From assembly GCF_019134595.1 (NCBI RefSeq), contig NZ_CP077771.1, positions 682,001 to 746,000 on the forward strand: a stretch of 64,000 nucleotides of DNA, written 5' to 3'. Positions within the stretch are counted from its first letter, which is position 1. Each line of letters begins with the position of its first letter. Below, piece after piece: positions 18,912 to 47,678 of the stretch. The translations under genes were made by a program, and so were the position numbers. This DNA is from Pseudoalteromonas shioyasakiensis (GTDB lineage: Bacteria > Pseudomonadota > Gammaproteobacteria > Enterobacterales > Alteromonadaceae). A model generated the notes under the pieces. That model made no database searches, was not told where the DNA came from, and saw only the letters and a program-made list of their open reading frames with translations.

Positions 18912-19054
18912 TGTTTGTTCCACTGTTTGATTCATTCAAATTACCTAAACTGTTAAAAATTAAAGTCCATTGCGTGAGAATTTAATTTTTACAGGAGTAA
19001 TCTAGCATTGCGGCCTTAGCAAAACCAGCGCAAACCGAGTAACATCAAAATTTT

Positions 19055-19951
19055 TCATCTTAGCATCGGACAAGCTTCTGGCAGCACTAAGTTAAGCGCG
19101 CCAGCATGCACTTCAAAACGCTGTTGTTTTGAGGTGATTGGCTCGCCATCTAAGTTTATTGGCATTTCTGTTTGTGTTTGCCATTCAAGCCAAGGCACTT
19201 GAAAGCGTTTTACCCACTGTTGAGATGAATTAGGGTAATTGCTGAGCTCTTCGATAACCGCTGGTACATCTGAAATTGCAAATGATGTAAACGCCACTAA
19301 ATCAACCAAGCCATCATTTATGTACGCATGTGGCGCAAGTGGCTGGCCACCGCCCGCTTTGCGGCCATTACATACGGCAGCGGCAATAATATCGCCCGAA
19401 GTACGTTCACCATCAGGCAGCGTTAACTCGCCACTGTAAGGAACAAAACTTAGCGCTTGTACAAGACCAGCCAAGGTATACGCCCCACCACCGAGTAAGT
19501 TTTTCAGTGCAGGCGGTGTGGTTGCGGTAATTTTTGCCCCAAAGCCAGCACTGGCAACGTTCACAAAATAACGCTTATCAACCTCTACCGTATCAATTGC
19601 ATGCGGCTGACCATTTGCGGCAAGTTTCAGCGCAGGCAAGTACCCGTGAGGAATATTAGCGGCTGTAGCAAAATCATTCGCTGTGCCCATAGGTAAAATA
19701 GCAAGCTCTAAACGTTGTGACTTTTCCAGTTTCATTAATGCATTAACGGCTTCATTAACGGTGCCATCACCACCAGCTACTACAACACGTTTTACACCCT
19801 CTGCGACGGCTTCATTAATAAAACGCTCAATGTCACCGCCTTCATAGGTAACTCGCACTGCAAGTTGCTGACTAGTTCGAAATTTATCAATGGCGTCACG
19901 AAGCTGCTCATCTGCCGCTTTTTTGCCATTTATAATTAACCGTAAGTCCAT
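19055..19951 (-). CDS. yegS: YegS-like lipid kinase
   Basis: A 298-residue diacylglycerol-kinase-catalytic-domain protein. The nucleotide-binding motif GGDGTVNEAVNAL and the LPMGTANDFATAANIPHG block are exact family features. RKAGGGQPLAPHAYINDGL and the closing NLDGEPI also match YegS. In E. coli YegS phosphorylates phosphatidylglycerol in vitro. The true substrate here is not known. The start at 19951 (MDLRLIINGK) has AGGGA in front. It is convergent with nothing and stands alone. Confidence 0.92.
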   Translation of the reverse strand: MDLRLIINGKKAADEQLRDAIDKFRTSQQLAVRVTYEGGDIERFINEAVAEGVKRVVVAGGDGTVNEAVNALMKLEKSQRLELAILPMGTANDFATAANIPHGYLPALKLAANGQPHAIDTVEVDKRYFVNVASAGFGAKITATTPPALKNLLGGGAYTLAGLVQALSFVPYSGELTLPDGERTSGDIIAAAVCNGRKAGGGQPLAPHAYINDGLVDLVAFTSFAISDVPAVIEELSNYPNSSQQWVKRFQVPWLEWQTQTEMPINLDGEPITSKQQRFEVHAGALNLVLPEACPMLR

Positions 19952-20001
19952 TTTTAATCCCTGTTTTAACACTTAGAACTACCATAACACGCAATGATTT
20001 A

Positions 20002-20266
20002 TATACCCAAACCACCTCAAGATGCAGAATTCAGCGTTTCACAGGTGCTTAATATCAAGGCGTTACTTTGCAAGAATGGCAGTCCCTTTTAAGAAGTAAC
20101 AACGATGAGAGTAAGTGCCTGTGAAGCGCCCAAAGGGTTGGTTTAAAAACGATTTATACTGCGTTATTGATTTTAACAATAGAACCACTATTACTTGCAA
20201 TCAATGCCTTGCCTAAATCGCTTTTAATTCCAACTGAAACTCGCATCTTGAGGTGGTTTGGGTATA
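20002..20266. mobile_element. MITE-like element with 24-bp perfect terminal inverted repeats
   Basis: The 24-bp ends are perfect inverted repeats (20002-20025 begins TATACCCAAACCACCTCAAG; 20243-20266 is its complement). The 217-bp inside has no open frame but holds a second, imperfect dyad (about 20033-20051 with 20113-20130, around the word CACAGG). No target-site duplication is clear beyond a few bases. This makes it a non-coding, possibly mobile or structured-RNA element in the gap between yegS and the receptor terminator, and it explains most of that 390-bp gap. Confidence 0.75.
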
Positions 20267-20272
20267 CGAAAC

Positions 20273-20296
20273 AAAAAAGCCCTGCTAATGCAGGGC
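20273..20296 (-). terminator. Rho-independent terminator of the receptor gene
   Basis: The stem GCCCTGC, loop taat, then GCAGGGC is followed by a run of six T on the minus strand. It lies 48 bases after the receptor stop codon and closes the lipoprotein-receptor transcript. Confidence 0.85.
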
Positions 20297-20344
20297 TAAA
20301 TCAACGTTAGGATTTATTATTGTATCCTTCCTTGGGGAGTTTAA

Positions 20345-23035
20345 TTAAAACTCGTAGCTGAAGCCTAAGCTAAACTTAGTGCCTTCTTCTTTCTTCCAAA
20401 GCGATAAACCTTCTTGTTCAATTTCTTTATCTTGACCAAGGATGTTTTCAATTTTGAACTTAACTTTTGTGTTGAAGTTCGGGAAGTAAGAATAAACTAA
20501 ATCAAGCGAATGGAATGGCTTCTCTTCAGCATCTTCGTTACCGCGAGTACCCGGTACAATAATACGTGGACCAAACACGTTATAGACAAGTGATGTCGAA
20601 TGGAAACCATCAGCAGAGTCATAACCCATTTGTAAGTTTGCTACCCACTCAGAGTGCCCCACTAAACGGCGCTCATCGTTAGTAACAATGTTAGACACTG
20701 TATCTGCATCAAGTGCATCTTTTAATTGCTGCTCAAACAACGAATCAACGCCGTCAGAATCATCGATACCTAGTTTCACAGTTGAATCAGATAGCGTAAC
20801 GTTACCCGACAAGAACACACTCGACCAATCTGCACTGATAAAGCTAAAGTCAGTCAAGAAATCAACTTCAATACCCGTTAACTCACCTGATTCAGCGTTT
20901 GCAGTTAATAACTGTGGCGCAGCACCACCTACACCCGCAAGCTCTACCATTTCAATAGGGTTTGTAATGTCTTTGTAGAACAATGCAACTGATAGATTAT
21001 TACCCGATGCCATATACCATTCAAAACGGAAGTCAGCATTTTTCAGTTTTGAACTTTGTAGTGTCGGTGAACCACGAACTAGAAACTCTGTTAACGGGTC
21101 AACGAAGAACGTAGAACTTACATCACGCATATCTGGACGAATCGTTGTTTCGCTTAAATTTAAACGAAATTGCATCTCTTCATCCATGATATAAGTCACA
21201 GCTAAAGAAGGATAAAAATCATCTTCTTTAATTGCTACTTCAGCGAGTTCATCCGTAGTGGCATCAAATAAGTTACTATGCGCCTTAAATGGTACTGATA
21301 CTTGAGCGAAATCTTCCCAACGCACACCACCGGTAATACGCCACGTGTTGTCTAGGAAGTAATCAGCCATAAAGTAATATGCATCTAACTTATGTGCTGC
21401 ACTGTATTTATCGCCGTCTGTTGTTCTGTCATCAAAAATGCCTGAACCCGTTGAGCTTGCATAGAAAGCATCATTATTGATGTTATCGTAAGCAAAAATC
21501 TCATCTAAACGTGAACCAAATGAATAATCATCTGAAATACCGCGGTGTGTAATCCCAAATGTGGTGTTGTTTGCTGTACGGGTTTTATCTGAGAAGTCGC
21601 CACCCACTTTTAGCTCAAGCTCATAGCCTTCACCATAAAATGGCATACCCATGTTCCAACCCCAAGTATCAACTTCGTCATGAAGCACTTGGAATTCACG
21701 TGTTACGTTAGTTGCTGAAACGTCTTGTAATTGCTCAGAAACAAACGAACCATTGTCGTAGTTACGTTGGAAAACAGCGTCTACACCACCTGGTGCATCA
21801 CGGTTTGCACGGCTTGTACCTGCGTACCAATCAACAAACAAGTTGTTAAAGTCGATAAAGTTGTGTGTGCCTTTTAACTGGCTAGAGAACATTTCACGCT
21901 CTTCATACACAACATCAACACGGCGAAGATCACGTACACCTTCTTCCGTTTCGTTGGCATCATAAAAATTACGATTACGAACACGGTCACGCATGTCATG
22001 CAGGGCAATATTAGTCAGTTCAATTTTATGGTTTGAATTAAACTCATAACCAATATTAAATGTACCGCTCCAACGCACATTTTGTTCAGTCGATGTACCA
22101 TCGTAATACTGAGCAAAACACTTGTCTTCACACCCTAAGCTACCGAGGTTTGTGCCACTTTTCTCTTGTGCTACTTCCCACTCATTTTCGTAAGAAACCG
22201 CAGCTAACACACCAAATGTGCCCATTTCACTTTCAAAGCGATCGCCTAGTGAAACTGAAAAGCTCATTTCAGGATCAACGTCTTTTTCAGTTGCTGAAAT
22301 GTTCCAATCAAGAGCCGACATCAATGCTTGGCGCTCAGCCAATGTTGTATTGATATCACCTTCAAGGCCCGCACCATAAAAGGCATCGATGAACTCACTA
22401 GGTAACGCACGAGTACCATCATCACGCCCCATCCAGTCATCATCACCACCTTCATAGAAGTAGCCTGTATCACTGTTATTGGTGTTATAAGAAGTACCAA
22501 TATCGACTTTAAATAAAAAATCAGTCGGAATTGATTTAGTTCTAATATTTACGTTACCACCACCAAAATGCGCAGGCATATCGGGTGAAAACGATTTTTG
22601 AACACTTAAACTTTCAATAATATCTGATGGAAATAAGTCAAGCGGTACAACTGAGCGAGTTGGATCAGGACTTGGTACATACATGCTATTAAGCTGAGTA
22701 CTCGAATATCGCTCACCTAAACCACGAACATAAATGAACTTGCCATCAACAAGTGTCAAACCTGTTACACGACGAAGTGCCGATGCAGCATCGCCATCAC
22801 CAGTACGAGAGATTTGCTCTGCACCCATGATATCGGCAACAAACGCTTGATTTTGACGCTCTTGAAGAACCGCGCCAGCACTCCCTTTTAAACGCTGTCC
22901 TACAGCAACCACTTCTTCAATTTCTTGTGCTTCATCCGCTGCATAGGCAGTATTCACTGATAAGCCAACTAATGCTGCAAGCACTGCGTGGTTTATCTTT
23001 GAACGCACAAGTTTAGAGGGGGTAAAAGATTTCAT
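20345..23035 (-). CDS. TonB-dependent outer-membrane receptor (partner of lipoprotein)
   Basis: An 896-residue outer-membrane receptor with a signal peptide (ending VNTAYAA), a TonB-box-like EIEEVVAVGQ at about 38-47 and a plug domain with LTLVDGKFIYVRGLGERYSS. A 22-strand barrel ends in the aromatic tail FSLGFSYEF. The plug segment PAHFGGGNVNIRTKSIP is typical of the Oar/Caulobacter-like receptors. There is no iron-siderophore signature. It follows the triple-repeat lipoprotein by 65 bp. It may be an import or export gate for that protein's ligand or for the protein itself (inference). Confidence 0.9.
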   Translation of the reverse strand: MKSFTPSKLVRSKINHAVLAALVGLSVNTAYAADEAQEIEEVVAVGQRLKGSAGAVLQERQNQAFVADIMGAEQISRTGDGDAASALRRVTGLTLVDGKFIYVRGLGERYSSTQLNSMYVPSPDPTRSVVPLDLFPSDIIESLSVQKSFSPDMPAHFGGGNVNIRTKSIPTDFLFKVDIGTSYNTNNSDTGYFYEGGDDDWMGRDDGTRALPSEFIDAFYGAGLEGDINTTLAERQALMSALDWNISATEKDVDPEMSFSVSLGDRFESEMGTFGVLAAVSYENEWEVAQEKSGTNLGSLGCEDKCFAQYYDGTSTEQNVRWSGTFNIGYEFNSNHKIELTNIALHDMRDRVRNRNFYDANETEEGVRDLRRVDVVYEEREMFSSQLKGTHNFIDFNNLFVDWYAGTSRANRDAPGGVDAVFQRNYDNGSFVSEQLQDVSATNVTREFQVLHDEVDTWGWNMGMPFYGEGYELELKVGGDFSDKTRTANNTTFGITHRGISDDYSFGSRLDEIFAYDNINNDAFYASSTGSGIFDDRTTDGDKYSAAHKLDAYYFMADYFLDNTWRITGGVRWEDFAQVSVPFKAHSNLFDATTDELAEVAIKEDDFYPSLAVTYIMDEEMQFRLNLSETTIRPDMRDVSSTFFVDPLTEFLVRGSPTLQSSKLKNADFRFEWYMASGNNLSVALFYKDITNPIEMVELAGVGGAAPQLLTANAESGELTGIEVDFLTDFSFISADWSSVFLSGNVTLSDSTVKLGIDDSDGVDSLFEQQLKDALDADTVSNIVTNDERRLVGHSEWVANLQMGYDSADGFHSTSLVYNVFGPRIIVPGTRGNEDAEEKPFHSLDLVYSYFPNFNTKVKFKIENILGQDKEIEQEGLSLWKKEEGTKFSLGFSYEF

Positions 23036-23065
23036 TATTATACTCCGAAAACAAAACTAGAAGCT

Positions 23066-23085
23066 GGCCGGGGTTGCCCCCGACC
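23066..23085 (-). promoter_or_regulatory. intercistronic GCAA-loop hairpin
   Basis: On the minus strand GGTCGGGG pairs with CCCCGGCC around a GCAA tetraloop (a GNRA loop), giving an 8-bp GC-rich stem. It is between the lipoprotein stop and the receptor start and lacks a T run, so it is not an ordinary terminator. It could protect the upstream mRNA and so make the lipoprotein more abundant than the receptor. Confidence 0.6.
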
Positions 23086-23100
23086 ATGGATTAGAAGGGC

Positions 23101-26100
23101 TTAGTTAAGACCTACTTTTACCCAACCTGCTGTCCAGTCTGTTTGCGCATCCATTGCACCGATGTAATCTACTTGGTCGAAGAAGCTATTTAGGCTTGAA
23201 GCATCGAAACCGCTACCAAGTAGTGCTGATTCAGCACTTGGTTGATAACCGTTGTCGCTAAGACCTAACATTGCTGCGTCCATGATAGAGTTACCTTCTT
23301 GGCCTTCGAACCAAGATTGAACATTACCTGTACCAATTGCTTGGCTTGAGAAGTTATTATCTGCTGCACATGCAACTACTGAGTGACTGATAGTAAGTGA
23401 ACCATCTTCAGCACGAGGTGCTGAATCTGCTCCAACTCGTAAGCAGTTTTTATAACCTTCACCACCTGTTACTACCACGTTTTTCAACATGCCCGCAGTA
23501 CCTGCACGTAAACGGATACCGTTTACACCATCTGCACCGATGATAGTTACGTTAGAGATAGTAGGTGTAGTTAAAGGTGATGCATCTGAATCAAACTCTG
23601 AGTTATCAGCTTCAATTGCATTGTCACCTTCAGATGAAGACTGCTTGATTAATACGTATTGTGCATTACCAGTCCAACCGAATGACCAATCTAGCGAGTC
23701 ATCACCAATGTTTGTTAGTACTAAGTGGCTGATGCTTGCAGTACCACCGAAGAACTCAACACCGTCATCAAGGTTTTCGTGAACGTGGATATAATCAAGT
23801 TCAGTTTGGCTACCAACACCTGCAAGTGAAATACCGTTAAGCTCATCACCGTTACCAAGTGTTTTACCTGCTTGTTTTACAACAACATACTTAAGAGTAC
23901 CTGAGTTATCTTCAGGTTGGTTACCACCGAATTGACCAGCATCACCTTCTGCAGCAACACCACAGTTTGCTAGTTCATCAGCCGTTGTTTCGCCCACTTG
24001 GTCGCCACAAGAGTTCGCTGGTGCGTTACCAAGAAGTACCACACCGCCCCATTGACCAATGCCTGTTTCAGCACCTGTCATATCTTGGATTGATGTCATA
24101 ACGATTGGTTGAGTTGCAGTACCTACCGCTTCAATCTTCGAGTCACGACGAACAACTAAGAAGTCATCACCGCTTTCACCGATTAGTGTTGTACCAAATT
24201 GAACATAAAGCGTTGCACTATCAGTACGGTCACCACCCACTGCCGTGCGGCCTTTAAGGATCCAGTGAGCATCGTTAGTTAATGTCACGTCAGAAGTAAA
24301 AACAACATCTTGTGCTAACTGATAAACTGGCTTATCGGTAATTTGTGGGAAGCTTGCAGAAACATCAGTCGCTAAACCTTGCTCCATTGCGTTTGTAATA
24401 TCAGCAGGGAAACTAGGGTTAACAGCAACTGTCCAACCGTCCATCCAGTTGTTGTCACCGTCAAATGCACCAATGTAGCTTGTTTTAGTGAAGAATGGGT
24501 CAAGGTCTGACGCATCAACACCAGCACCTAATAGCGGTGAGCTTGATTTAGGCGTGAAACCATCTGTAGCAAGGTTTAATGTCGCTGCAGTAAGTGTTTG
24601 GTTACCAGTTTGACCTTCGAACCAAGACTGAACATTACCAGAACCGATTGCTTCAGAACCGAAGTTATTGTCTGCACTACATGCTACCACTGAGTTCTCA
24701 ATAGAAAGCTCACCAGACTCAGCATTTGCTACAGAGTCAGAACCTACACGTAAACAGTTTTTGTAACCTTCAGGGCCTGTCACAACCATGTTACGGATAA
24801 CACCCGCTGTACCTGCACGAAGACGAACACCGTTTTTACCGTCAGCACCAACAATCGTTACGTTTGAAAGTAATGGCTTAGTTAATGGTGTTGCGTTTGA
24901 ATCGAACTCAGAGTTATCTGCTTCGATTGCATTGTCACCTTCAACAGATGATTGTTGGATATAAACGTTTTGTGCGCGACCTGTCCAACCAAATGACCAG
25001 TCAAACGCGTCATCACCAATATCAGTTAGTACAACGTTACGAACGTTGACAGTACCACCGAAGAACTCGATACCATCGTCAAGGTTTTGGTGAACTTGGA
25101 TGTATTCAACTTTTGTTTTAGAACCAACACCCGCGAATGAAATACCATTTAGCTCATCGCCATTACCCAGTGTTTTACCTGCGTGTTTAACAACAACATA
25201 ACGAACAACACCCGAGTTGTCTTCTGCATCATCACCACCGAATTGACCTGCATCACCTTCAGCTGCAACACCACAGTTTGCTAGCTCTTCAGGTGTTGTT
25301 TCACCTTGTTGGTCACCACATGAGTTAGCCGGTGCATTACCAAGTAATACTAAACCACCCCATTGACCGATGCCTGTCTCTGCACCTGTCATATCTTGGA
25401 TAGATGTCATAGTGATTGGTGCTGTTGCATTACCATTAGCGTTAATTTGTGAACCACGACGAACAACTAAGAAGTCATCACCTGTTTCACCAATTAATGT
25501 AGTACCCGCTTGAACATATAATGTTGCGCTATCAGTACGGTCACCACCCACAGCTGTACGACCGTTTAAGATCCAGTGAGCGTCATTTGTTAATGTTACA
25601 TCTGAAGTGAAGGTTGTATCTTCAGCTAAACGATAAACCGGCTTGTCAGTGATTTGTGGGAATTCAGATGAAACGTCTGTCGCAAGGCCTTGCGCCATTG
25701 CATTTTCAATATCCGTTGGGAAACCGCCATTGATAGCAACAGTCCAACCTTCCATCCAGTTATTTGTTGCGCTAAATGCACCGATTTGACCATTCGCTAA
25801 TAATGGTGAACCCGCTAAAGGCATATAACCATTATCATCTAGCATTAGATCTGCTGGAGTAAGTGTTTGGTTACCGTCTTGGCCTTCAAACCATGCTTGT
25901 ACAGTACCACCATTAATTGTTTCGCTACCAAAGTTATTCGCAGCTGTTTGACAAGCAACAACTGAGTTAGTGATAGTTAGAGAGCCGTCTTCTGCTCGAG
26001 GCACTGAATCAGAACCAACACGTAAACAGTTTTCATACGTTGCAGGGCCTGTAACGAAAACGTTTTTTAGCATACCTGCAGTACCTGCACGTAGACGAAT

Positions 26101-27201
26101 ACCATTGTTACCTTCTGCACCTACGATTGTTACGTTTTCAATGGTAGGGTTAGTTAGTGGTGTAGCGTCTGAATCAAACTCAGAGTTATCCGCTTCAATC
26201 GCGTTGTCACCTAAGTTCGCAGCTTGTTGAATGTATACGTTTTTCGCCGTACCAGTCCAACCAAATGACCAATCTAGTGAGTCATCACCAATGCTTGTAA
26301 GTACCACGTTACTTACGTTTACTGTACCACCAAAGAACTCGATACCATCATCTAAGTTTTCGTGTACTTGAATGTAATCAACTGTAGTTGCAGAACCAAC
26401 ACCGGCAAATGAAATACCGTTTAATTCGTCACCATTACCCAGTGTTTTACCTGCATGTTTAACAACTAAGTATTTCAATGTACCAGAGTTATCATCTGCA
26501 ACGTTACCACCGAATTGACCTGCATCACCTTCTGCAGCAACACCACAGTTTGCAAGTTCGTCTGCAGTTGCTTCGCCTTCTTGGTCACCACATGAGTTTG
26601 CAGGTGCATTACCAAGAAGTACTAAACCGCCCCACTGACCGATAGACGTCTCAACATTAGTCACATCTTGAATCGAAGTCATTGTGATTGGCTGACTTAC
26701 AGTACCTACTGATTCGATTTGTGAGCCACGACGTACAACTAAGAAGTCATCACCCGATTCACCGATTAATGTAGTACCTTGTTGGATATATAAAACAGCG
26801 TTATCAGCTCGGTCATTACCTACAGCTGTACGACCATTTAAAATCCAGTGAGCATCATTTGTTAGTGTCGCATCAGCTGTGAATGTAGTGTCTGCTGATA
26901 AGCGGTAAACTGGTTTATCTGTAATCGTAGGGAATTCTGAAGAAACATCTGTTGCTAAACCTTGTGTTAAGGCATTTTCGATGTCAGTTGGGAAACCAGT
27001 AGTCGCATTTTGAGAATCATCACGACCAGATTGGTCGCCGCCGTTATCACCATTGTCACCACCATTATCGATGATGTTAGTGACGTTATCGCCTTCGTTG
27101 ACAGTGGTGTCGCCTTCTTTAACGACTAAATCACCACCACAACCAGCTAAAGAAACTGCTGCAGCTACCAAACTAACTTTGAATAAGTCAGATAATTTCA
27201 T
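23101..27201 (-). CDS. giant lipoprotein with three tandem beta-helix-like repeats
   Basis: A 1366-residue lipoprotein. The lipobox is SLAGC with Cys-21 modified, followed by a low-complexity Asp/Gly/Asn linker to about residue 67. Three homologous units follow at about 69-492, 493-930 and 931-1366. Each starts with FPTDIENA-type words, has GQWGG-VLLGNAPANSCGD with a later ELANCG that could form a disulfide, then DDGIEFFGGT, SFGWTG, GDNAIEADNSEFDS and GIRLRAGTAG. These short turns repeated every 20-30 residues suggest a right-handed parallel beta-helix. Acidic Asp/Asn turns could bind calcium or glycans. Function unknown. Confidence 0.92.
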   Translation of the reverse strand: MKLSDLFKVSLVAAAVSLAGCGGDLVVKEGDTTVNEGDNVTNIIDNGGDNGDNGGDQSGRDDSQNATTGFPTDIENALTQGLATDVSSEFPTITDKPVYRLSADTTFTADATLTNDAHWILNGRTAVGNDRADNAVLYIQQGTTLIGESGDDFLVVRRGSQIESVGTVSQPITMTSIQDVTNVETSIGQWGGLVLLGNAPANSCGDQEGEATADELANCGVAAEGDAGQFGGNVADDNSGTLKYLVVKHAGKTLGNGDELNGISFAGVGSATTVDYIQVHENLDDGIEFFGGTVNVSNVVLTSIGDDSLDWSFGWTGTAKNVYIQQAANLGDNAIEADNSEFDSDATPLTNPTIENVTIVGAEGNNGIRLRAGTAGMLKNVFVTGPATYENCLRVGSDSVPRAEDGSLTITNSVVACQTAANNFGSETINGGTVQAWFEGQDGNQTLTPADLMLDDNGYMPLAGSPLLANGQIGAFSATNNWMEGWTVAINGGFPTDIENAMAQGLATDVSSEFPQITDKPVYRLAEDTTFTSDVTLTNDAHWILNGRTAVGGDRTDSATLYVQAGTTLIGETGDDFLVVRRGSQINANGNATAPITMTSIQDMTGAETGIGQWGGLVLLGNAPANSCGDQQGETTPEELANCGVAAEGDAGQFGGDDAEDNSGVVRYVVVKHAGKTLGNGDELNGISFAGVGSKTKVEYIQVHQNLDDGIEFFGGTVNVRNVVLTDIGDDAFDWSFGWTGRAQNVYIQQSSVEGDNAIEADNSEFDSNATPLTKPLLSNVTIVGADGKNGVRLRAGTAGVIRNMVVTGPEGYKNCLRVGSDSVANAESGELSIENSVVACSADNNFGSEAIGSGNVQSWFEGQTGNQTLTAATLNLATDGFTPKSSSPLLGAGVDASDLDPFFTKTSYIGAFDGDNNWMDGWTVAVNPSFPADITNAMEQGLATDVSASFPQITDKPVYQLAQDVVFTSDVTLTNDAHWILKGRTAVGGDRTDSATLYVQFGTTLIGESGDDFLVVRRDSKIEAVGTATQPIVMTSIQDMTGAETGIGQWGGVVLLGNAPANSCGDQVGETTADELANCGVAAEGDAGQFGGNQPEDNSGTLKYVVVKQAGKTLGNGDELNGISLAGVGSQTELDYIHVHENLDDGVEFFGGTASISHLVLTNIGDDSLDWSFGWTGNAQYVLIKQSSSEGDNAIEADNSEFDSDASPLTTPTISNVTIIGADGVNGIRLRAGTAGMLKNVVVTGGEGYKNCLRVGADSAPRAEDGSLTISHSVVACAADNNFSSQAIGTGNVQSWFEGQEGNSIMDAAMLGLSDNGYQPSAESALLGSGFDASSLNSFFDQVDYIGAMDAQTDWTAGWVKVGLN
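23104..26997 (-). repeat. three tandem ~1.3-kb coding repeats
   Basis: The lipoprotein gene contains three direct repeats: 25726-26997, 24412-25725 and 23104-24411. Protein words such as GLATDVSSEF and RTAVGGDRTDSATLYVQ recur at the same places. At DNA level many third positions differ, so the copies are old. They still hold long enough matches to allow unequal crossing-over. Confidence 0.9.
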
Positions 27202-27246
27202 TGTTCACTCCGTTAAGATAGATATTTAATTATTGTGTTAGCGCAT

Positions 27247-27301
27247 AAACTCAAGTCACCCAAAAGCACTGAAATTTAATGCTTTTGGGTCACTTGAGTT
27301 T
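27247..27301. promoter_or_regulatory. 22-bp inverted repeat in front of the lipoprotein gene
   Basis: The left arm 27247-27268 (AAACTCAAGTCACCCAAAAG...) pairs with the right arm 27280-27301 with only one mismatch zone. It ends about 45 bp before the lipoprotein ATG and lies between the motor-operon terminator and that gene. It may be an mRNA leader hairpin or a binding site for a dimeric regulator. Confidence 0.6.
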
Positions 27302-27413
27302 TAAACTGCGACTACCTTACGGGAGCTGTATGACAAACTAGTTACACTTTAATAAACATAAAATGACAATATTAATTATTTAAAAAAGAGTTAGTTAGTT
27401 AATTTTAGGAACG

Positions 27414-27440
27414 GAAAAAAGCCGCCCGAAGGCAGCTTTG
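27414..27440 (-). terminator. Rho-independent terminator with UUCG loop
   Basis: On the minus strand GCTGCC, the tetraloop TTCG and GGCGGC are followed by TTTTTT. It lies about 50 bases after the TPR gene and separates the DUF3450-to-TPR operon from the lipoprotein gene. Confidence 0.9.
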
Positions 27441-27491
27441 GTGTTGCGATTATAAATTAGTTCTTTTGTACGCTTACCTGTTGAATACGAT

Positions 27492-28799
27492 TTAGAGTAA
27501 AGCGGTACGTAATGTTTCGGCGTGCACTTTTTCACGCTTCACATACTTGATCCATTGCTCAGCTAAACGCTGCGACTTTTTATGTTTTTCCGCTTGTTCA
27601 AACGCTAAAATCGAGGCATCAAAGTTTTGTAAATTGTACTGCGCCATACCTAAGGCAACATACACATTCGATTCAAACTCTAAGCCGCCTTTATCGAGGG
27701 CTTTACGTGCTGCATCCGCTGCTTCTTCGTATTTTTCAAGGTTAATGCTTACCTCTGCAATACGTTGTTCGTACTGACCATGCGTTACTAAATCAGCAGC
27801 TTTTGCAAAGTAAGCAAGTGACTTTTCACCCTCTTTTGCTTGTACCATTGCTTCTGCAACAAAGGCATAATTTTTCGCTGATTTTTCAGCGACACCGTCT
27901 TGCATAGCTTTACTCATCACGTTCGCCGCTTTAAAAGCCAGGCCGTTGTATAAATACACTTGTGATAATTGACGTAAATCTGATTTAGATTTCATGAAAC
28001 CTTGTTGATATGCCGCTTCTAAAATCGCTAATTGCTTTTTCTCTGCGCCCGTTTCACCGTACATGCCACCTAACTGAACCCAGTACTCTGGCTTGTTGTA
28101 AAGCTTAACTAAACGCTCAAGTACCTCGACCACTTTGTCAGACTGATTAAGTGAGTAGTACATAGCACGCTGTAAGATTAACCAGTTTTCTTTTGGCATC
28201 TCACCTTTACTGTCAGCTTCTGCGATAGCTAGGTTAATGTTTTCAATGCCTTTTTGGTAATCTTTAAGCTGATAATACGCTTGAGATTTCAATACATAAT
28301 AAGCATCTGTTTTAGGCTTGTCGTTAATCACATCCCACTGTGCTAAATATTTGATTACCTTTTCGTAATCGCTATTAGCCATTGCAAGTTGCGCTAAGCT
28401 AAAGGTGGTGCTTACTCGTAATGTTTCTGGAATCGCATCTTCGTTTACTACTTTTTCAAACGACGCAATTGCTTTATCTAGGTCGTTTTCGTTGTAGTAA
28501 ATAAAACCGTAGAAATTATGCATCATGGCAATTTCATACGAGTTCATGCTCGAAGAGCGCTCTTGAATACTATCAAGTGCTTCTAGCCCTGCTTTTGCAT
28601 CACCATCATCAGCCAGCTTTTGTGCTCGTGCTAATTGGCTATACACTTTTTCGCGCAGTGCAGGTACTCGTTTAGTTTTTTGCTCTTGAGCGTAAGCTGT
28701 TGCCAGAGTGACACCTGGTAACATACTAACAACGCTTGGTACTACAAGGCTGCTTGTGAAAGCAGCCGCGCAAATCACGGCAACTTTTAAAGGTTTCAT
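27492..28799 (-). CDS. exported TPR protein of the TonB2 operon
   Basis: A 435-residue periplasmic protein with a long signal peptide (cleavage near TLATAYAQ). The mature part is made of TPR helices from about residue 50 to 420, for example MMHNFYGFIYYNENDLDKAI and YVALGMAQYNLQNFDASILA, with the usual Gly/Ala/Tyr pattern. A TPR protein is regularly found after tonB2 in marine gammaproteobacteria and probably helps link motor and envelope. It is 17 bp from tonB2 and is the last gene before the terminator. Confidence 0.87.
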   Translation of the reverse strand: MKPLKVAVICAAAFTSSLVVPSVVSMLPGVTLATAYAQEQKTKRVPALREKVYSQLARAQKLADDGDAKAGLEALDSIQERSSSMNSYEIAMMHNFYGFIYYNENDLDKAIASFEKVVNEDAIPETLRVSTTFSLAQLAMANSDYEKVIKYLAQWDVINDKPKTDAYYVLKSQAYYQLKDYQKGIENINLAIAEADSKGEMPKENWLILQRAMYYSLNQSDKVVEVLERLVKLYNKPEYWVQLGGMYGETGAEKKQLAILEAAYQQGFMKSKSDLRQLSQVYLYNGLAFKAANVMSKAMQDGVAEKSAKNYAFVAEAMVQAKEGEKSLAYFAKAADLVTHGQYEQRIAEVSINLEKYEEAADAARKALDKGGLEFESNVYVALGMAQYNLQNFDASILAFEQAEKHKKSQRLAEQWIKYVKREKVHAETLRTALL

Positions 28800-28816
28800 A
28801 ATCGCATTCCTCTTTT

Positions 28817-29422
28817 CTAACCGTTAATTTGGAAAGAAATTTTGTTCTGTACGCCCGCTACTTCAACAGCTTCACCGTTAACAACGCGCGGTTTATATTT
28901 AAATTTAAGTGCTGCATCCATCGCAGCGCGGTCAAACAATGACTCTGGTTCAGCTTTAATAACTTTCGGGTCACGTACTGTGCCTTGCTTGGTTACTGTA
29001 AACTCAACAATCACATAGCCTTCAATTCCACGCGATAAAGCTCGGCGCGGGTAAACAGGCGCTACTTTTACAATCGGCAGGTATTCACCATCGCTTGATT
29101 CAAGGGCTAAGCCGCCAGCTAAGTTAACGTCGGCTTCCACACTGGCACCAAAGTCAAAATTGGCATTGCTCGCGTTAGGATCACTGTTTTGCATTTGCGG
29201 TGATTCCATTGGCGGAGGTGGCTCTTTTGGCGTTGGTGGCTTTTGCGGTTTACGTTCTTTCTTTTGCACTGTCTCTTCTTTTTTCAGACGAACAAAATCA
29301 AGTACGTTTCCTTTTACGGGCTCAGACATGGCCCCTTCACCACCGCTGATCAGTGCCTGCATGCCTAAAAACAGCATGACAGTCACGATACCAGCGATGA
29401 TTAATGCAACTATATAACGCAT
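28817..29422 (-). CDS. tonB2: TonB2-type energy transducer
   Basis: TonB spans the periplasm and carries proton-motive energy from ExbBD to outer-membrane receptors. It has one N-terminal anchor (YIVALIIAGIVTVMLFLGM), a Pro-Lys-rich spacer (KPQKPPTPKEPPPP) and a C-terminal domain with YPRRALSRGIEGYVIVEFTV and DRAAMDAALKFKYKPRV, which contains the conserved receptor-binding face. At 201 residues it is short, as in Vibrio TonB2, whose spacer is also short. It is cotranscribed with exbD2 (12-bp gap). Confidence 0.93.
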   Translation of the reverse strand: MRYIVALIIAGIVTVMLFLGMQALISGGEGAMSEPVKGNVLDFVRLKKEETVQKKERKPQKPPTPKEPPPPMESPQMQNSDPNASNANFDFGASVEADVNLAGGLALESSDGEYLPIVKVAPVYPRRALSRGIEGYVIVEFTVTKQGTVRDPKVIKAEPESLFDRAAMDAALKFKYKPRVVNGEAVEVAGVQNKISFQING

Positions 29423-29434
29423 CGCTCACATTCC

Positions 29435-29848
29435 TTATGATGCTTCTTGCGCAGCAATCGACACATCAAATGCGCCTGCAGCTCGCGATGCATCCATTAC
29501 TTTAATAAGTACATCAGTTGTGGCTTTCTTATCAGCTTGAATAACCACGCTACCTTGTGGGTTTTCAGCTTTTAAGCGCTCGATATTTGCTTGTACTGCA
29601 CGAACATCTACTTGGCGTTTGTTGATCCAAATTTCACCTTTGTCAGAAATAGCAACTAAGATGTTGGCACGCTCTTTTTTCACTGCCGTTGCAGCTTCAG
29701 GACGGTTTACATCAATACCGGCTTCTTTTACGAATGATGCTGTTACGATAAAGAAGATAAGCATGATGAAAACAACGTCTAGCATTGGCGTCATGTTGAT
29801 TTCTTCAGCGTCGTCTTCTTGAAATAAGTTACCTAGTGGCGCTCTCAT
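29435..29848 (-). CDS. exbD2: ExbD2-type proton-channel protein
   Basis: A 137-residue ExbD/TolR protein with one membrane helix (MLDVVFIMLIFFIVTASFV) in which the Asp near residue 23 is the essential proton-carrying residue. A periplasmic domain with ANILVAISDKGEIWINKRQ and ADKKATTDVLIKVMDA follows, as expected for the family. It pairs with ExbB2 and TtpC to power TonB2. Confidence 0.93.
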   Translation of the reverse strand: MRAPLGNLFQEDDAEEINMTPMLDVVFIMLIFFIVTASFVKEAGIDVNRPEAATAVKKERANILVAISDKGEIWINKRQVDVRAVQANIERLKAENPQGSVVIQADKKATTDVLIKVMDASRAAGAFDVSIAAQEAS

Positions 29849-29893
29849 TGTTAGTCTCCTAGTGGGTGATGCTCACATCACCCTAAAATTCGT

Positions 29894-30421
29894 TTAGTGG
29901 TCTAAGACCATTTTGTCTTCAAGTAATTGCACTTCGCGTTTTGCACGACGTTGTAAGAACGTTGACGCGAAAACCCCTGAAAGTGCACCCACCATACCGG
30001 CCATCGTTGGGATAGTGGCTTTAGACACCCCTGATGCCATCGAACGTGCACTGCCTGTGCCTGTAATTGCCATTACATCAAATACTTCGATCATGCCGGT
30101 TACGGTACCTAACAGACCTAAAAGTGGACATAACGCAACCATTACGTTGATTAGCGCAAGGTTATTATTTAGTTGCATGCCAGCGCGTGAAATCATCGCT
30201 TGGCGAATTTGCTCTGCGTTCCAGCTGTTACGCTCTGCTCTATTGCTCCAAGTGCTTTTTACGTCTTTCTTGTAGCGTTTAAAGCCACCAAAGAAATACA
30301 TAAAACGCTCAAGTATCAATAACCACATCGCGAAGATGAGGACCCCGATGACCAAGAGAACTTGGCCACCTGTGTCGAGGAAATCACGTAGAGCATTGAT
30401 TGCATCAATCAATAGCACCAT
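29894..30421 (-). CDS. exbB2: ExbB2-type proton-channel protein
   Basis: A 175-residue MotA/TolQ/ExbB protein with three membrane helices. The family motif is seen as LALINVMVALCPLLGLLGTV with TGMIEVFDVMA and MASGVSKATIPTMAGMVGA. The short form and the gene order are those of the Vibrio TonB2 system. Its stop is 3 bp from the ttpC-like gene's end, so the two genes are tightly linked. Confidence 0.93.
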   Translation of the reverse strand: MVLLIDAINALRDFLDTGGQVLLVIGVLIFAMWLLILERFMYFFGGFKRYKKDVKSTWSNRAERNSWNAEQIRQAMISRAGMQLNNNLALINVMVALCPLLGLLGTVTGMIEVFDVMAITGTGSARSMASGVSKATIPTMAGMVGALSGVFASTFLQRRAKREVQLLEDKMVLDH

Positions 30422-30424
30422 GAT

Positions 30425-31792
30425 TTATGCTCCTTTCTCGCTTCGCTCTGCGATGATACCTGCGCTTTGCTCTTGTAAAATCAACAGCATGTTTTTAGAA
30501 CGCGTGTTAAGAAGTGTGTATAAGAATACTGTTGGGATAGCCACAACCAGACCAAGTACCGTTGTTACAAGTGCCTGAGAAATACCACCCGCCATTAGTT
30601 TAGGGTCACCTGTACCGAACAAGGTAATTGCTTGGAAGGTGTTAATCATACCGGTTACCGTACCTAGTAGACCAAGTAGTGGTGCTACCACAGAGATAAT
30701 CTTAATTAACGTCAGGTTACGAGTTATTTTTGGCATTTCACGAATGATTGCTTCGCTTAATTTAAGCTCAAGCGTGTCGTACGCTACATCTGGGTACTGA
30801 TCTTTCACTTTCATTACGCGACCAAGTGGATTGTCATCACGTGCTACTGTGTCTTTAAGCTGACGACGGATTTTGCTACCCATAATCATTAGAGATACAA
30901 AACGCTCAAGTGCGATTAGTAAAGCGATTAAGCCAACTCCTAAGATGATGTAACCAACCGTACCACCTTGGTGAACTTGCTCTTCAGTATCAGGTGCTTG
31001 TACTAAAAGACCTAAGATTGAACCACCTGTAGGGTCAAGTGCGAACGGTACGACACCTGAGTTTGCTTGCTGTAAATCAGCTGCAGTTGCTGTGTAACGG
31101 CTGCTAGGCTGACGTGTAAGCTGGCTGATTGTGTTCGTAGCCGGTGTGTACTCAAGGTATTTACCGTCTGCGATTAAGTTAAATGCACCAACACGCACCA
31201 CTTCTTTTTGTGCTTTGCTGCCACCTTCAACGATAACATCTGTTGTAAAGCGAGATACTTTACCTTGCTCAGTCATTTCGCGTTGTAATTCAAACCATAC
31301 TTTTTCGATATCATCGATAGAAGCAAGCTTTGACGTTGAACCCATTTTTTGTGCTAGTTCATCCATGAAGTTACTACGACCAGGAAGCTCTGCAGAAACA
31401 ACTGACGTCATGAATTTATTGCTTGAATCACCCGCTACTTGTTGTAACACACCGAATAGCTCTTTAAGTGAACCCATGCGGTTTGAAAGTGTGTCTGTTA
31501 AGTTAGCTAGCTTTACTTCGTTTTCTTCAAATTGAGTTTCTAAACGCTCTGATTCGTTAAGCATTGCAGTACGTTTTGCTTGTGTATCTTTAAGCATTTG
31601 TACTTGTTCATTCTGACGCGCCATGAACTCTTGTTCACGTTGTTTATTTTCGGCGCTTTGCTGTGCTTTACCTTGCTCTAATGTTTTTAGTAATGAGTCT
31701 AAATCCATTGGCTCAGCTGCTAGGCTGCTACCAGCAAAACCAAGGCCAGCTGCAAACACGGCCATTTTTGTCATTTTCGTTAATAATTTCAT
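30425..31792 (-). CDS. ttpC: TtpC-like large ExbB homologue
   Basis: A 455-residue protein with a signal-like helix, a long periplasmic coiled-coil part to about residue 270 (for example NEQVQMLKDTQAKRTAMLN) and a C-terminal MotA/TolQ/ExbB domain (VAPLLGLLGTVTGMINTFQA, then MAGGISQALVTTVLG). This is the layout of TtpC, the extra component that is essential for TonB2-dependent iron uptake in Vibrio. Its presence marks this as a TonB2-type system instead of a simple TonB1. Confidence 0.93.
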   Translation of the reverse strand: MKLLTKMTKMAVFAAGLGFAGSSLAAEPMDLDSLLKTLEQGKAQQSAENKQREQEFMARQNEQVQMLKDTQAKRTAMLNESERLETQFEENEVKLANLTDTLSNRMGSLKELFGVLQQVAGDSSNKFMTSVVSAELPGRSNFMDELAQKMGSTSKLASIDDIEKVWFELQREMTEQGKVSRFTTDVIVEGGSKAQKEVVRVGAFNLIADGKYLEYTPATNTISQLTRQPSSRYTATAADLQQANSGVVPFALDPTGGSILGLLVQAPDTEEQVHQGGTVGYIILGVGLIALLIALERFVSLMIMGSKIRRQLKDTVARDDNPLGRVMKVKDQYPDVAYDTLELKLSEAIIREMPKITRNLTLIKIISVVAPLLGLLGTVTGMINTFQAITLFGTGDPKLMAGGISQALVTTVLGLVVAIPTVFLYTLLNTRSKNMLLILQEQSAGIIAERSEKGA

Positions 31793-31802
31793 CTCAAACC
31801 TC

Positions 31803-32555
31803 TTATTCAGCAGCGTGGACTGGCAGTGTTAACATATCTGGGGCAAGTTGCTTACGAGCAATGCGTAAACCTTTATTGATTTGGCTGATTGCAGAATCTG
31901 GTAATTCAACAAACGATTTTGTTTCTTTATCCCAGCTACCTGCTTTTTTGCCGTCGCGTGTTAAATAAATAAGTTCTAAACGACCAATGCGTAAGAAATC
32001 CACTTCGCGCTCTTGGCCATCTACATTCAATAATGCTGTGTACGCTTCGATAGTGCGACCGTAATCAACTTCTACTTGGTAAGCTTCAAGTAAGCGGCGG
32101 AATTTTTCACTTGAAGTGATGTCTGCGCGGTCCATCATTTCTTTTAATGATGCAATACGCTTACTACGTTCTTCAGTTAAGAAAGGCACGTCTAGTGCAA
32201 CGAATTGCTCAAGACCTGTGATCATACGCATCATTAACGGCGTAATTTGACGCTCAATAACTGACACCTGATCCATTGACTCGTTTAACGCGTCCATTTC
32301 TGCAATTTGGTTATTTAATTGCTTAGTAAGTTGCGCGTTATAAACAGTTAAGCCGTCAATTTCTTTATTAAGGGCTTTAAATTGTTGTAAACGACCTTGC
32401 ATTGAATCTGCAATCTTGTCGATTTTAGTTTGTGATTGCGCTGCAGATTTGTTTATCTCGCTGCTTTTATCAATTACTTTATCTAGATCGTTTGCATGTA
32501 CTGCTGCAGATGCCGCTACAATACCTGCTAAAATCAGTGGTTTAACGCCTTTCAT
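31803..32555 (-). CDS. DUF3450 periplasmic coiled-coil protein
   Basis: A 250-residue exported protein (signal MKGVKPLILAGIVAASAAVHA) with a long coiled coil (KIDKIADSMQGRLQQFKALN and onward) and then RLLEAYQVEVDYGRTIEAYTA, VDFLRIGRLELIYLT and WDKETKSF. This is DUF3450, almost always the gene before ttpC in TonB2 clusters. Its action is unknown. The start at 32555 is chosen because AAAGG precedes it. The upstream GTG at 32564 overlaps that ribosome site. It is the first gene of the operon. Confidence 0.9.
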   Translation of the reverse strand: MKGVKPLILAGIVAASAAVHANDLDKVIDKSSEINKSAAQSQTKIDKIADSMQGRLQQFKALNKEIDGLTVYNAQLTKQLNNQIAEMDALNESMDQVSVIERQITPLMMRMITGLEQFVALDVPFLTEERSKRIASLKEMMDRADITSSEKFRRLLEAYQVEVDYGRTIEAYTALLNVDGQEREVDFLRIGRLELIYLTRDGKKAGSWDKETKSFVELPDSAISQINKGLRIARKQLAPDMLTLPVHAAE

Positions 32556-32645
32556 CGCATACACCTTTACTCGTTAAGTTAGCTTAATTTGCTAGTTGGG
32601 TTGTTTTATTGTGCGAAAGGATAACGATGAAAAATGACAAGCATG

Positions 32646-32700
32646 TTGCGCAAAAAATACAAAAATATGACAGCTGTAACAATTAGTTTATATTGCGCAA
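32646..32700. promoter_or_regulatory. pair of TTGCGCAA palindromes upstream of the TonB2 operon
   Basis: Two perfect 8-bp palindromes TTGCGCAA at 32646-32653 and 32693-32700, 47 bp apart, occupy the AT-rich gap before DUF3450. They could be a paired operator, but eight bases are short and the distance to the neighbouring dsbA-like gene allows other roles. Confidence 0.35.
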
Positions 32701-32731
32701 AGATAAGGCAAAAGTTGCAGGGTTTCGGGAA

Positions 32732-33337
32732 CTAAATATGGGATAGGATTTGCTGGTATGTGCTTTGCCAGTCTTGATAATTAACAGGAATAGCAGCGAA
32801 GAGCCCTTTATCATCAAGGACTAAAGACGGAAAACCTTGAATAGGTAAGCTTCTGGCTTGGTTTATTTCGGCCATAAGTAACGAATTTATTTTTTCACTT
32901 TCAATTTCTTTAATGAATGCGTTTTTTTCTAACCCTATTTGCTCAGCAAGGCTTGCAAGAGTGCTGATGTCAGATGGATTTTGTGCATCTAAGTAGTAGG
33001 CTTTTTGAATGGCGTAGAGCATCTCGTGCTCTTTATTGTGCTGCCTTACAACAAGCACAGCACGGCATGCTGGGTAAGTAGAGCGGCGTGGTTGCGCGGT
33101 ATGCCAAAACTCATGATTAAATGGCGTGCCAAGCTGCTGTTCTATACGTTGCCATGTTTGCTGTAAAAACTGCTGCATCTCTTTTGGCATTGGCTCATCT
33201 GAATCAGGCGCGAGGCCACCTACTTTGTATTCAATAGCAAGTTTATCGCCAAGGGCTGCTTTTAGTTTTAACCAGGTTTCTCTGTAGCCCCAGCACCAAC
33301 TACACATTGGGTCGTATACATAAATTAGCTTTGCCAT
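32732..33337 (-). CDS. DsbA-family cytoplasmic thioredoxin-fold protein
   Basis: A 201-residue DsbA-like protein with the redox centre Cys12-Ser-Trp-Cys15 near the N-terminus (YDPMCSWCWGY) and a cis-proline in QGFPSLV. It has no signal peptide, so it acts in the cytoplasm, unlike true DsbA. It fits the COG3531-type predicted protein-disulfide isomerases. Its ATG directly follows the stop of the diguanylate-cyclase gene, indicating a shared transcript. Confidence 0.88.
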   Translation of the reverse strand: MAKLIYVYDPMCSWCWGYRETWLKLKAALGDKLAIEYKVGGLAPDSDEPMPKEMQQFLQQTWQRIEQQLGTPFNHEFWHTAQPRRSTYPACRAVLVVRQHNKEHEMLYAIQKAYYLDAQNPSDISTLASLAEQIGLEKNAFIKEIESEKINSLLMAEINQARSLPIQGFPSLVLDDKGLFAAIPVNYQDWQSTYQQILSHI

Positions 33338-34417
33338 TTAGCTTATCTCAGTTAAATCAGAGACTACTACATTACGCCCTTTTGCTTTGGCTTTATAGAG
33401 GTTGTCGTCTGCTTGTTTAATCGCTTTACTAAATTGGCTGCCACGCTCAAGGCTGGCAATACCAATACTGCACGTAATAGTCACAGACTGCCCAACATCA
33501 TAAGGGATCTGTTTTTCGGCGACATAACTACGCAGTTTTTCAGCCACAGCATGGGCAATGCTAAGCCCCGCTTTTGGTAGCAAAATAATAAACTCTTCGC
33601 CGCCATAACGTGCTTTTATATCTGTACCACGTAATTTATCGTGCAGCATAGAGGTAAAGGCTATTAATGCCTGATCGCCAAAGTCATGACCATAAGTATC
33701 ATTTAGTGATTTAAAGTTATCTAAATCAATTAATAATACCGACATAGGTAAGTAATTAGCCGCTTCAGCTTCAAGGCGCGGCTGAATATGTTCATAAATA
33801 TAACGACGATTAGCAAGACCTGTGAGTGGGTCTGTTAATGCATCGCGTTTTTCTATTAAGGTAATATCAGCAATTTTTTGATGGCTTTTTTGCCTAAAGT
33901 ATTCACTGATCCCAGAGAATAAAATCACCATAGTGAAAGAGGCTAAAAAGCGTGAGGTTTCAACTTGCCCGTAATGTGCTTGCCCAAAGTTGGGGCTAAA
34001 GAGCAGTGCAACTGCACTAGCATACATAATTCCAACCAACACACTGCCTACTTTTAACCCTAAAGTGACATAAGCCACAATAGGGTAAAACATGAGCCAA
34101 TATAAAGCGGTGTTTTCTTTGCCGCCGGTGTATACCAGTGCCACACAGAGCAGCAAAATAATCGATAAAATAATGCAGCTTACAGAGACTAAAGCACCAG
34201 TGCGAAAGTAATAGAGCATGCACAGCACAATAGTTATATCGCTCACCACTAACATAATAGTGAGCGGTAAGGCGTAAATTTGATAGTTAGATAACACTAA
34301 CGAAGTGATTAATACGATGGCAAAAAAAGCCATAGTAAATAGCGTGAAGGCACGGCGCTGTTTATCCGCCGTGTCGACACTGTTTAAAGTAATGGCATTA
34401 AGCCAATTTTGATCCAA
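33338..34417 (-). CDS. membrane diguanylate cyclase (GGDEF)
   Basis: A 359-residue enzyme that should make cyclic di-GMP from GTP. Six hydrophobic helices between about residues 22 and 180 form a membrane sensor of unknown signal. The catalytic domain has LTDPLTGLANRRYIYEHI, LLIDLDNFKSLNDTYGHDFG and RYGGEEFIILLP. RGTD five residues before GGEEF is an intact inhibitory I-site, so product feedback is expected. It sits downstream of the chemoreceptor gene (20 bp) and upstream of the DsbA-like gene. Confidence 0.93.
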   Translation of the reverse strand: MDQNWLNAITLNSVDTADKQRRAFTLFTMAFFAIVLITSLVLSNYQIYALPLTIMLVVSDITIVLCMLYYFRTGALVSVSCIILSIILLLCVALVYTGGKENTALYWLMFYPIVAYVTLGLKVGSVLVGIMYASAVALLFSPNFGQAHYGQVETSRFLASFTMVILFSGISEYFRQKSHQKIADITLIEKRDALTDPLTGLANRRYIYEHIQPRLEAEAANYLPMSVLLIDLDNFKSLNDTYGHDFGDQALIAFTSMLHDKLRGTDIKARYGGEEFIILLPKAGLSIAHAVAEKLRSYVAEKQIPYDVGQSVTITCSIGIASLERGSQFSKAIKQADDNLYKAKAKGRNVVVSDLTEIS

Positions 34418-34436
34418 AATTGCAGTCTCTTAACAA

Positions 34437-36326: not shown

Positions 36327-36420
36327 GACAAACCTGTTTGTTATTTTTTTCGTTGTTAGCCTCTTTATATTTAACAAATTTAAAGCTCTTTGTCTTATAA
36401 AATTAAGCTAAAACTAGAAA

Positions 36421-47647: not shown

Positions 47648-47678
47648 ATTGCCGAAAAATTTCGACAATTTACCTATA

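Follow-up and report, generated by a model that had tools for sequence, protein, structure and literature searches.

A TonB2 motor operon, a 1366-residue lipoprotein (LIPO) and a TonB-dependent receptor (TBDR), encoded side by side in Pseudoalteromonas shioyasakiensis, probably form a PhoB-controlled system for phosphorus scavenging at the outer membrane, in which LIPO would capture the ligand, the TBDR would import it and a Pho-linked, proton-driven TonB motor would supply the power. This reading is given a probability of about 0.7. The DNA analyzed here (the window) is a stretch of 64,000 nucleotides, positions 682001-746000 of C2, the 899-kb contig of a two-contig, 4.72-Mb genome. The eight genes concerned all lie on the minus strand and run from 32564 to 20345 in the order DUF3450, TtpC, ExbB2, ExbD2, TonB2, TPR, LIPO and TBDR. 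A first-pass annotation of this DNA had described a TonB2 operon, a 1366-residue lipoprotein and a receptor on one strand, and gene calls and Pfam confirmed it; Pfam supports every one of the eight genes except LIPO. Its view that these genes work together as a single surface system, unlike the usual siderophore cluster, proved largely right: LIPO and TBDR are a near-constant pair, and the motor falls in a distinct clade associated with Pho genes and Pho boxes. The phosphate context, absent from that annotation, is the main result of this study. Phosphate takes the place of iron in this context, with Pho boxes and Pho genes recurring at the pair. TonB motors have mostly been studied through iron and vitamin B12, and marine bacteria can be phosphorus-limited; the present results suggest a further use of such motors under phosphate starvation.

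The LIPO-TBDR pair and its phosphate context

In the window, LIPO (23101..27201, minus strand) is followed by the TBDR gene (20345..23035, minus strand), which encodes a Plug and a barrel (PF00593, PF07715) and, by eye, a TonB-box-like IEEVVAVG behind the signal peptide; its match to TIGR01782 is below that model's cut-off. The pairing was followed in 31 loci of set 1 (L031-L061) and 80 loci of set 2 (L062-L141, the best 80 of at least 532 confirmed stretches), 111 together, five set-1 loci recurring in set 2 with near-identical LIPO. LIPO and TBDR are near-constant neighbors. The TBDR follows LIPO on the same strand in 31/31 loci of set 1. Over both sets, a same-strand TBDR lies at most 700 bp from LIPO in 95/111 loci, and LIPO precedes TBDR in 91 of these 95. 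In nine further loci the TBDR stands at a greater distance with motor genes in between, and in seven it is absent; by our own reading six of the seven end at contig ends, and L139 is a true exception. The distance correlation of LIPO and TBDR is 0.77 over 96 loci, a value not used as support. LIPO, TBDR and TtpC/ExbD/TonB-like genes also occur together in records of Deltaproteobacteria, Myxococcota, Planctomycetota and Methylothermaceae.

A tandem Pho-box-like island lies upstream of LIPO (27330..27369, minus strand). By eye it has four half sites spaced by 11 bp and includes an exact box at 27346-27330, the only exact box in the window; the four half sites (27369-27330) are kept in L063, where the flanks have diverged. 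The strict Pho box pattern, based on the general consensus, was TGTMAYNNNNNTGTCAY. Boxes were counted within 300 bases upstream of open reading frames (ORFs) that were 150 aa or longer and had 150 or more bases in front of them; 30/31 and 69/80 loci could be used. Strict boxes were found upstream of LIPO in 9/30 loci of set 1, versus 10/343 other ORFs (p 2e-6), and in 21/69 loci of set 2, versus 20/727 other ORFs (p 2e-13), which gives totals of 30/99 LIPO promoters and 30/1070 other ORFs. Nine of these 30 other ORFs are the DUF3450 motor gene, and about a dozen are porin, phoB, pstS or phoD-like genes; since many box-bearing control ORFs are thus motor or Pho-type genes, the control is conservative. 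The window's genome contains four exact boxes: one each upstream of the pst operon, a porin and LIPO, and a fourth between convergent genes. Pho control of the LIPO-TBDR pair is considered very likely.

Phosphate genes recur beside the pair as well. For example, in three Alteromonas-type loci (L064, L065 and L069) the order is phoB-phoR-pstS-oxygenase-LIPO-TBDR-motor, and in L073, partly also in L075-L077, phoR-phoB is divergent from LIPO-TBDR, with porin, phoU, pstB and permease genes next. Scores above NCBIfam cut-offs were obtained for PhoB (L064, L073, L136), PhoR (L064, L073), PstS (L064), and PhoU and PstB (L073). Counted with self-chosen identity thresholds, a core Pho gene is present in 6/31 and 22/80 loci and phoB in 5/31 and 16/80; the seed named PhoX is PhoD by Pfam. 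A PhoX phosphatase is a neighbor in L091 and PhoD in L101. In the window's genome, phoB is located on the other contig (C1:781153) together with porin-like, phoR-like and pstS-like genes, recognized by similarity and by eye. The oxygenase gene between pstS and LIPO in L064 (L064:6557-7357) belongs to the 2OG-Fe(II) oxygenase family by Pfam; a relative occupies the same place in L065 and L069, and the loci L078 and L079 also contain one.

The TonB2 motor and its paralogues

The motor operon opens with the gene for a TtpB-like DUF3450 protein (31803..32564; PF11932, E 1.3e-94), which falls in the phosphate-linked clade of a DUF3450 tree. This tree was limited to close-type motors scoring above 250 against the profile and longer than 230 aa, and its root serves for drawing only; the distant-type motors of 13 set-2 loci, and L211, which scored too low, stand outside it. 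Its 45 proteins form a clade of 25 copies from LIPO loci with four others, and a second clade of 15 copies from elsewhere; L214 is unplaced. A motor was taken as adjacent when it shared the fetched locus, with a gap to the TBDR of up to 2.7 kb (L036). The clade with the LIPO-locus motors is read as a dedicated paralogue, distinct from housekeeping copies. The window's genome holds one motor of each clade, the second at C1:1523331. Both types also stand side by side in L039, where a housekeeping-clade motor operon (L039:466-5427) lies about 3 kb upstream of a cluster of LIPO, TBDR and dedicated motor.

The two clades differ in their promoters. A near-consensus Pho box precedes 22/29 dedicated-clade motors versus 0/15 housekeeping copies (p 1.5e-6), and a strict box precedes 9/24 locus-sharing copies versus 1/20 others, that single copy being L205, a member of the dedicated clade. 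Among 20 motor loci away from LIPO, three hold Pho genes (L205, L210 and L213); all belong to the dedicated clade and are three of its four members outside LIPO loci. No Fur-like site exceeded the shuffle level before the scored motor copies of either the dedicated or the housekeeping group, and the best Fur match of the window motor was 12/19, below the 95% shuffle level of 13. Because the housekeeping copies likewise gave no such site, the Fur test fails to mark those as iron systems.

The motor shares the pair's locus in 8/31 loci of set 1, there downstream of the TBDR, and motor genes occur in about 29/80 loci of set 2 (16 close-type and 13 distant-type, own reading); in Pseudoalteromonas L062 and L063 the motor is upstream of the pair, as in the window. 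The first-pass annotation had tied its proposal to conserved neighbors in relatives, which holds for LIPO and TBDR, whereas the motor adjoins them in just these loci. Distant-type loci, found in Pseudobacteriovorax, Deltaproteobacteria, Myxococcota, Planctomycetota, Methylothermaceae and others, have a one-unit LIPO, in most cases separated from the TBDR by TtpC-, ExbD- and TonB-like genes, and a DUF3450 match that is weak (24-39 bits) or absent. Over the 34 loci with a motor, the distance correlation is 0.84 for TBDR and TtpC and 0.58 for LIPO and TBDR, values likewise not counted as support. DUF3450 scored above the Pfam cut-off in 32/32 genomes with LIPO versus 119/197 of the order sample (p 1.6e-8). 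LIPO was present in 32 of these 197 genomes (single-sequence query, own genome included), and the motor type is therefore more widespread than LIPO.

The remaining motor genes, all on the minus strand, encode a TtpC-like MotA/TolQ/ExbB protein (30425..31792; PF01618, MotA_ExbB), ExbB2 (29894..30421; PF01618), ExbD2 (29435..29848; PF02472), TonB2 (28817..29422; PF03544) and a TtpD-like TPR protein (27492..28799; TPR families). Because a terminator-like hairpin lies between TPR and LIPO (27418..27439, minus strand; called from position and T tail) and LIPO has its own Pho box, LIPO-TBDR is probably a transcription unit separate from the motor operon, not its tail. A second such hairpin follows the TBDR (20278..20297, minus strand). 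Both call for the same caution, as terminator-like hits in the region number 13 against a shuffle mean of 12.7, i.e., no excess. A near-perfect large hairpin with arms of about 22 bases is present in the LIPO leader (27247-27301, minus strand); it occurs just once in the genome, is not conserved in L063 and was dropped as an argument.

Units and conserved residues of LIPO

LIPO has, by eye, a LAGC lipobox at its N terminus and consists of three units of 424, 437 and 436 aa (unit 1, 25723..26994; unit 2, 24412..25722; unit 3, 23104..24411; all minus strand, from unit comparison). Identity to unit 2 is 76% for unit 1 and 74% for unit 3; the best named match of unit 2, among the matches listed, is Pseudoalteromonas sp. 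0303 (99% identity). Relatives carry one unit per ORF in 30 cases, two in 70 and three in 12, fragments included, and three units are thus one end of the range seen. The lipobox pattern fits 92/112 family ORFs, the others being cut ORFs or plain signal peptides. In the unit tree, units of one lineage cluster together (Pseudoalteromonas, Alteromonas, Kordiimonadaceae) and inside the groups are often sorted by position; the units were therefore duplicated or converted several times. The family was found in 54/398 sampled genomes of the phylum by profile query, three of them weak (E above 1e-10).

Across 196 aligned units, numbered as unit 2, the residues N192, D215, D216, E219, D237, D238, D241 and E267 are invariant to two decimals, and E190, H211, D269, R89, R302 and four cysteines reach at least 95% overall; the alignment omitted L102, L104, L126, L137, L140 and short units. 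In 32 distant units, the cysteines and H211 fall below 90%. Should the fold be a beta-helix, the spacing of 22-28 residues would line up the acids along one side of consecutive coils. The first-pass annotation had described a three-unit, beta-helix-like lipoprotein. Its three units stand, and the beta-helix is weakly indicated: PF13229 matched 8/32 LIPO units with a best E of 0.017, and a PDB search with the LIPO profile found no relative. A PDB search with the TBDR found nothing. LIPO has no Pfam or NCBIfam match above a curated cut-off; matches to CofH_C and Bla1, both below the curated cut-offs, were taken as chance.

Additional LIPO-like genes were seen in two places. In L058, a second, diverged ORF of 1034 aa (L058:12675-15779; 29% identity) adjoins the LIPO-TBDR pair on the same strand. 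In genome G292, two similar LIPO genes are located far apart (L224:12481-14088 and L225:3242-4849), each with an exact Pho box upstream and with no obvious lipobox in the N terminus shown.

Known systems, proposed mechanism and alternatives

The published comparisons below are drawn from extracts of the cited papers. The surface lipoprotein ElpS (CC_0170) of Caulobacter crescentus carries a LAGC lipobox and is induced by phosphate starvation; elpS adjoins the TBDR gene CC_0171 and type II secretion system (T2SS) genes, and conservation in Shewanella and Bacteroides was pointed out by the authors (PMC2996285). LIPO resembles ElpS in its LAGC lipobox, in the TBDR gene next after the lipoprotein gene and in a probable link to phosphate starvation. 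This kinship is drawn from layout and from the identities reported for Flavobacterium relatives (PMC8115612), not from the ElpS sequence. ElpS, of about 50 kDa, fits one unit, whereas LIPO has three, and the extracts of PMC2996285 name no TonB motor beside elpS, whereas the window pair has one. A Caulobacter-like order, LIPO-TBDR then T2SS genes, was found in the alpha-proteobacterial members L122, L127, L128 and L134, with GspD and T2SSC confirmed in L128, and T2SS genes also follow LIPO-TBDR in 4/12 further regions (L217, L222, L223 and L227, the last from the same genome as L122). Among the window ORFs of 17793-36377, no T2SS gene was recognized by eye, without a family search; such neighbors were not regarded as a necessary feature of the ElpS type. 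The Caulobacter PhoB regulon includes TBDRs and the T2SS (PMC11208175).

In Flavobacterium, the lipoproteins FI, FII and FIII are induced by low inorganic phosphate (Pi), FI lies beside a TonB-dependent transporter (TBDT) gene, and the three are 31-36% identical to the Caulobacter lipoprotein (PMC8115612). FI/FII/FIII, PUSIII (Fjoh_3856/3857) and PusCD, as described, are like LIPO-TBDR in that a Pi-inducible lipoprotein stands beside a TBDT; PusD is described with SusD Pfam domains, whereas LIPO has none. ExbB is not mentioned in PMC8115612. Deletion of Fjoh_3856 or absence of Fjoh_0546 is reported to leave colony expansion unaffected (PMC7807042), which is not used in the argument. In L138, a Flavobacteriales metagenome-assembled genome, TBDR-LIPO lies beside a response regulator gene; among NCBIfam models its product fits PhoB best, with a score below the cut-off. 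Judged by layout, the LIPO-TBDR pair is of a known kind, the ElpS type, and the new part is the apparently dedicated, Pho-linked TonB motor; titles and abstract starts of the open-licence PMC literature gave no TonB motor of the Pho regulon among the matches listed. The results also give a setting to a lipoprotein family that is widespread but has no Pfam model, and whose studied members considered here (ElpS and probably FI-FIII) still lack a mechanism.

The Vibrio vulnificus TonB2 operon encodes TtpB2, TtpC2, ExbB2, ExbD2, TonB2 and TtpD2, is iron-induced and has a Fur site (PMC6957404). The window motor has the same six components in one operon with the DUF3450 gene first. The order of the other Vibrio genes is presumably the same too. 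Unlike the iron-induced operon, the dedicated clade has Pho-like boxes and sits with LIPO-TBDR. SusCD importers offer another parallel, a surface lipoprotein and a TBDR acting as a working pair, as is proposed for LIPO-TBDR. SusD proteins vary with the ligand, whereas the acidic core of LIPO is invariant across phyla, and LIPO showed no SusD Pfam domain at E 0.001. Of the SusD-like capture partner suggested in the first-pass annotation, the capture role is plausible and the SusD domain is absent.

The proposed mechanism is as follows. At low phosphate, PhoB would switch on LIPO-TBDR and, in many relatives, the dedicated TonB2/TtpC-type motor paralogue as well. The surface lipoprotein, with one to three repeats and its invariant acidic set, would bind a phosphorus-containing ligand, for which the acidic residues may hold metal ions, and hand it to the receptor. 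TonB2, driven by ExbB2-ExbD2-TtpC, would open the receptor for import, and the imported product would reach PstS or periplasmic phosphatases. Uptake by this receptor with this motor is considered likely. A more specific scenario, at even odds, is that a duplicated TonB2/TtpC motor was rewired from general duty to the Pho regulon, that the pair actively imports phosphate or a phosphate compound to PstS, that the acids hold phosphate-bridging metals, and that repeat number shifted by repeated duplication. If true, the system would be a dedicated, energized outer-membrane arm of phosphate uptake. The separate motor paralogue with Pho-box-like sites, found alongside phosphate genes, makes active pumping of phosphorus at the outer membrane testable by gene deletion.

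Several observations weigh against phosphorus scavenging by these eight genes. No strict Pho box was found in 69/99 LIPO promoters, and no core Pho gene within the fetched stretch in 83/111 loci. The motor is not beside the pair in 23/31 and about 51/80 loci, some of which end at contig ends, and the distance correlation of LIPO and TtpC is only 0.43 over the 34 motor-bearing loci. The stretches around control motors were mostly shorter, at 8 kb versus 20 kb. In the window's genome, the pair is distant from phoBR and pst, being located on the smaller of the two contigs, and the four exact boxes are fewer than the seven hits of a reversed-pattern control; the total is thus not enriched, and only the places of the hits count. 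The window's motor lacks a strict box, and its best site, the borderline Pho-box-like CTGTCATATTTTTGTATT (32656..32673, minus strand, at -109), scored 20.6, slightly short of the 20.8 that marks the 99% level when the scored rows are shuffled by mononucleotide. Expression of cc0171 in Caulobacter was reported to be constitutive, and phosphatase activity did not change when elpS was deleted (PMC2996285).

Three other explanations were considered, in falling order of probability. LIPO may be a surface enzyme or activator (a phosphodiesterase, a phosphatase helper or a glycan-phosphate binder) whose released product the receptor imports, with regulation and motor unchanged. The eight invariant residues and the nearly invariant R89 and R302 would suit a fixed chemistry, extracellular phosphatase activity rose when ElpS was overexpressed (PMC2996285), and Flavobacterium relatives were modeled on polygalacturonase (PMC8115612). 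However, refolded and immunoprecipitated ElpS had no phosphatase activity (PMC2996285), no enzyme family gave a credible match to LIPO, and the cysteine pairs lose their constancy in the distant units; a role as enzyme or activator is considered unlikely. Improbable is the Oar-type export that the first-pass annotation had also raised, in which LIPO would be a substrate sent out through the receptor by the TonB motor. The constant pairing of the two genes would fit, and ElpS reaches the surface by a T2SS-independent, unknown route (PMC2996285). Yet ElpS is still made without cc0171, its surface location in that mutant being unreported in the extracts of that paper (PMC2996285), and the phosphate regulon context suits uptake. 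Pfam finds just Plug and barrel in the window receptor, not the N-terminal carboxypeptidase-regulatory-like domain that marks Oar-type receptors. Longer N-terminal parts were seen by eye in the distant receptors L091, L107 and L138.

The locus could also be an iron uptake system with incidental phosphate links, as six-component TonB2 systems take up siderophores in Vibrio vulnificus (PMC6957404). With Pho boxes and Pho genes recurring, and with no scored motor copy of either group preceded by a Fur-like site above shuffles, this is very improbable; the second motor at C1:1523331 could fill the iron role. Phosphorus scavenging by LIPO, TBDR and the Pho-linked motor remains the preferred reading.

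Other genes of the window were also noted. A DsbA-like protein is encoded directly upstream of the motor operon (32732-34417, minus strand), and the gene preceding it reads, by eye, like that of a GGDEF protein. Two more TonB-dependent receptors are located at 47649-50090 (plus strand) and 57700-60489 (minus strand); the former adjoins an amidohydrolase gene (46216-47484), with a DUF885 protein gene (44245-46068) close by.

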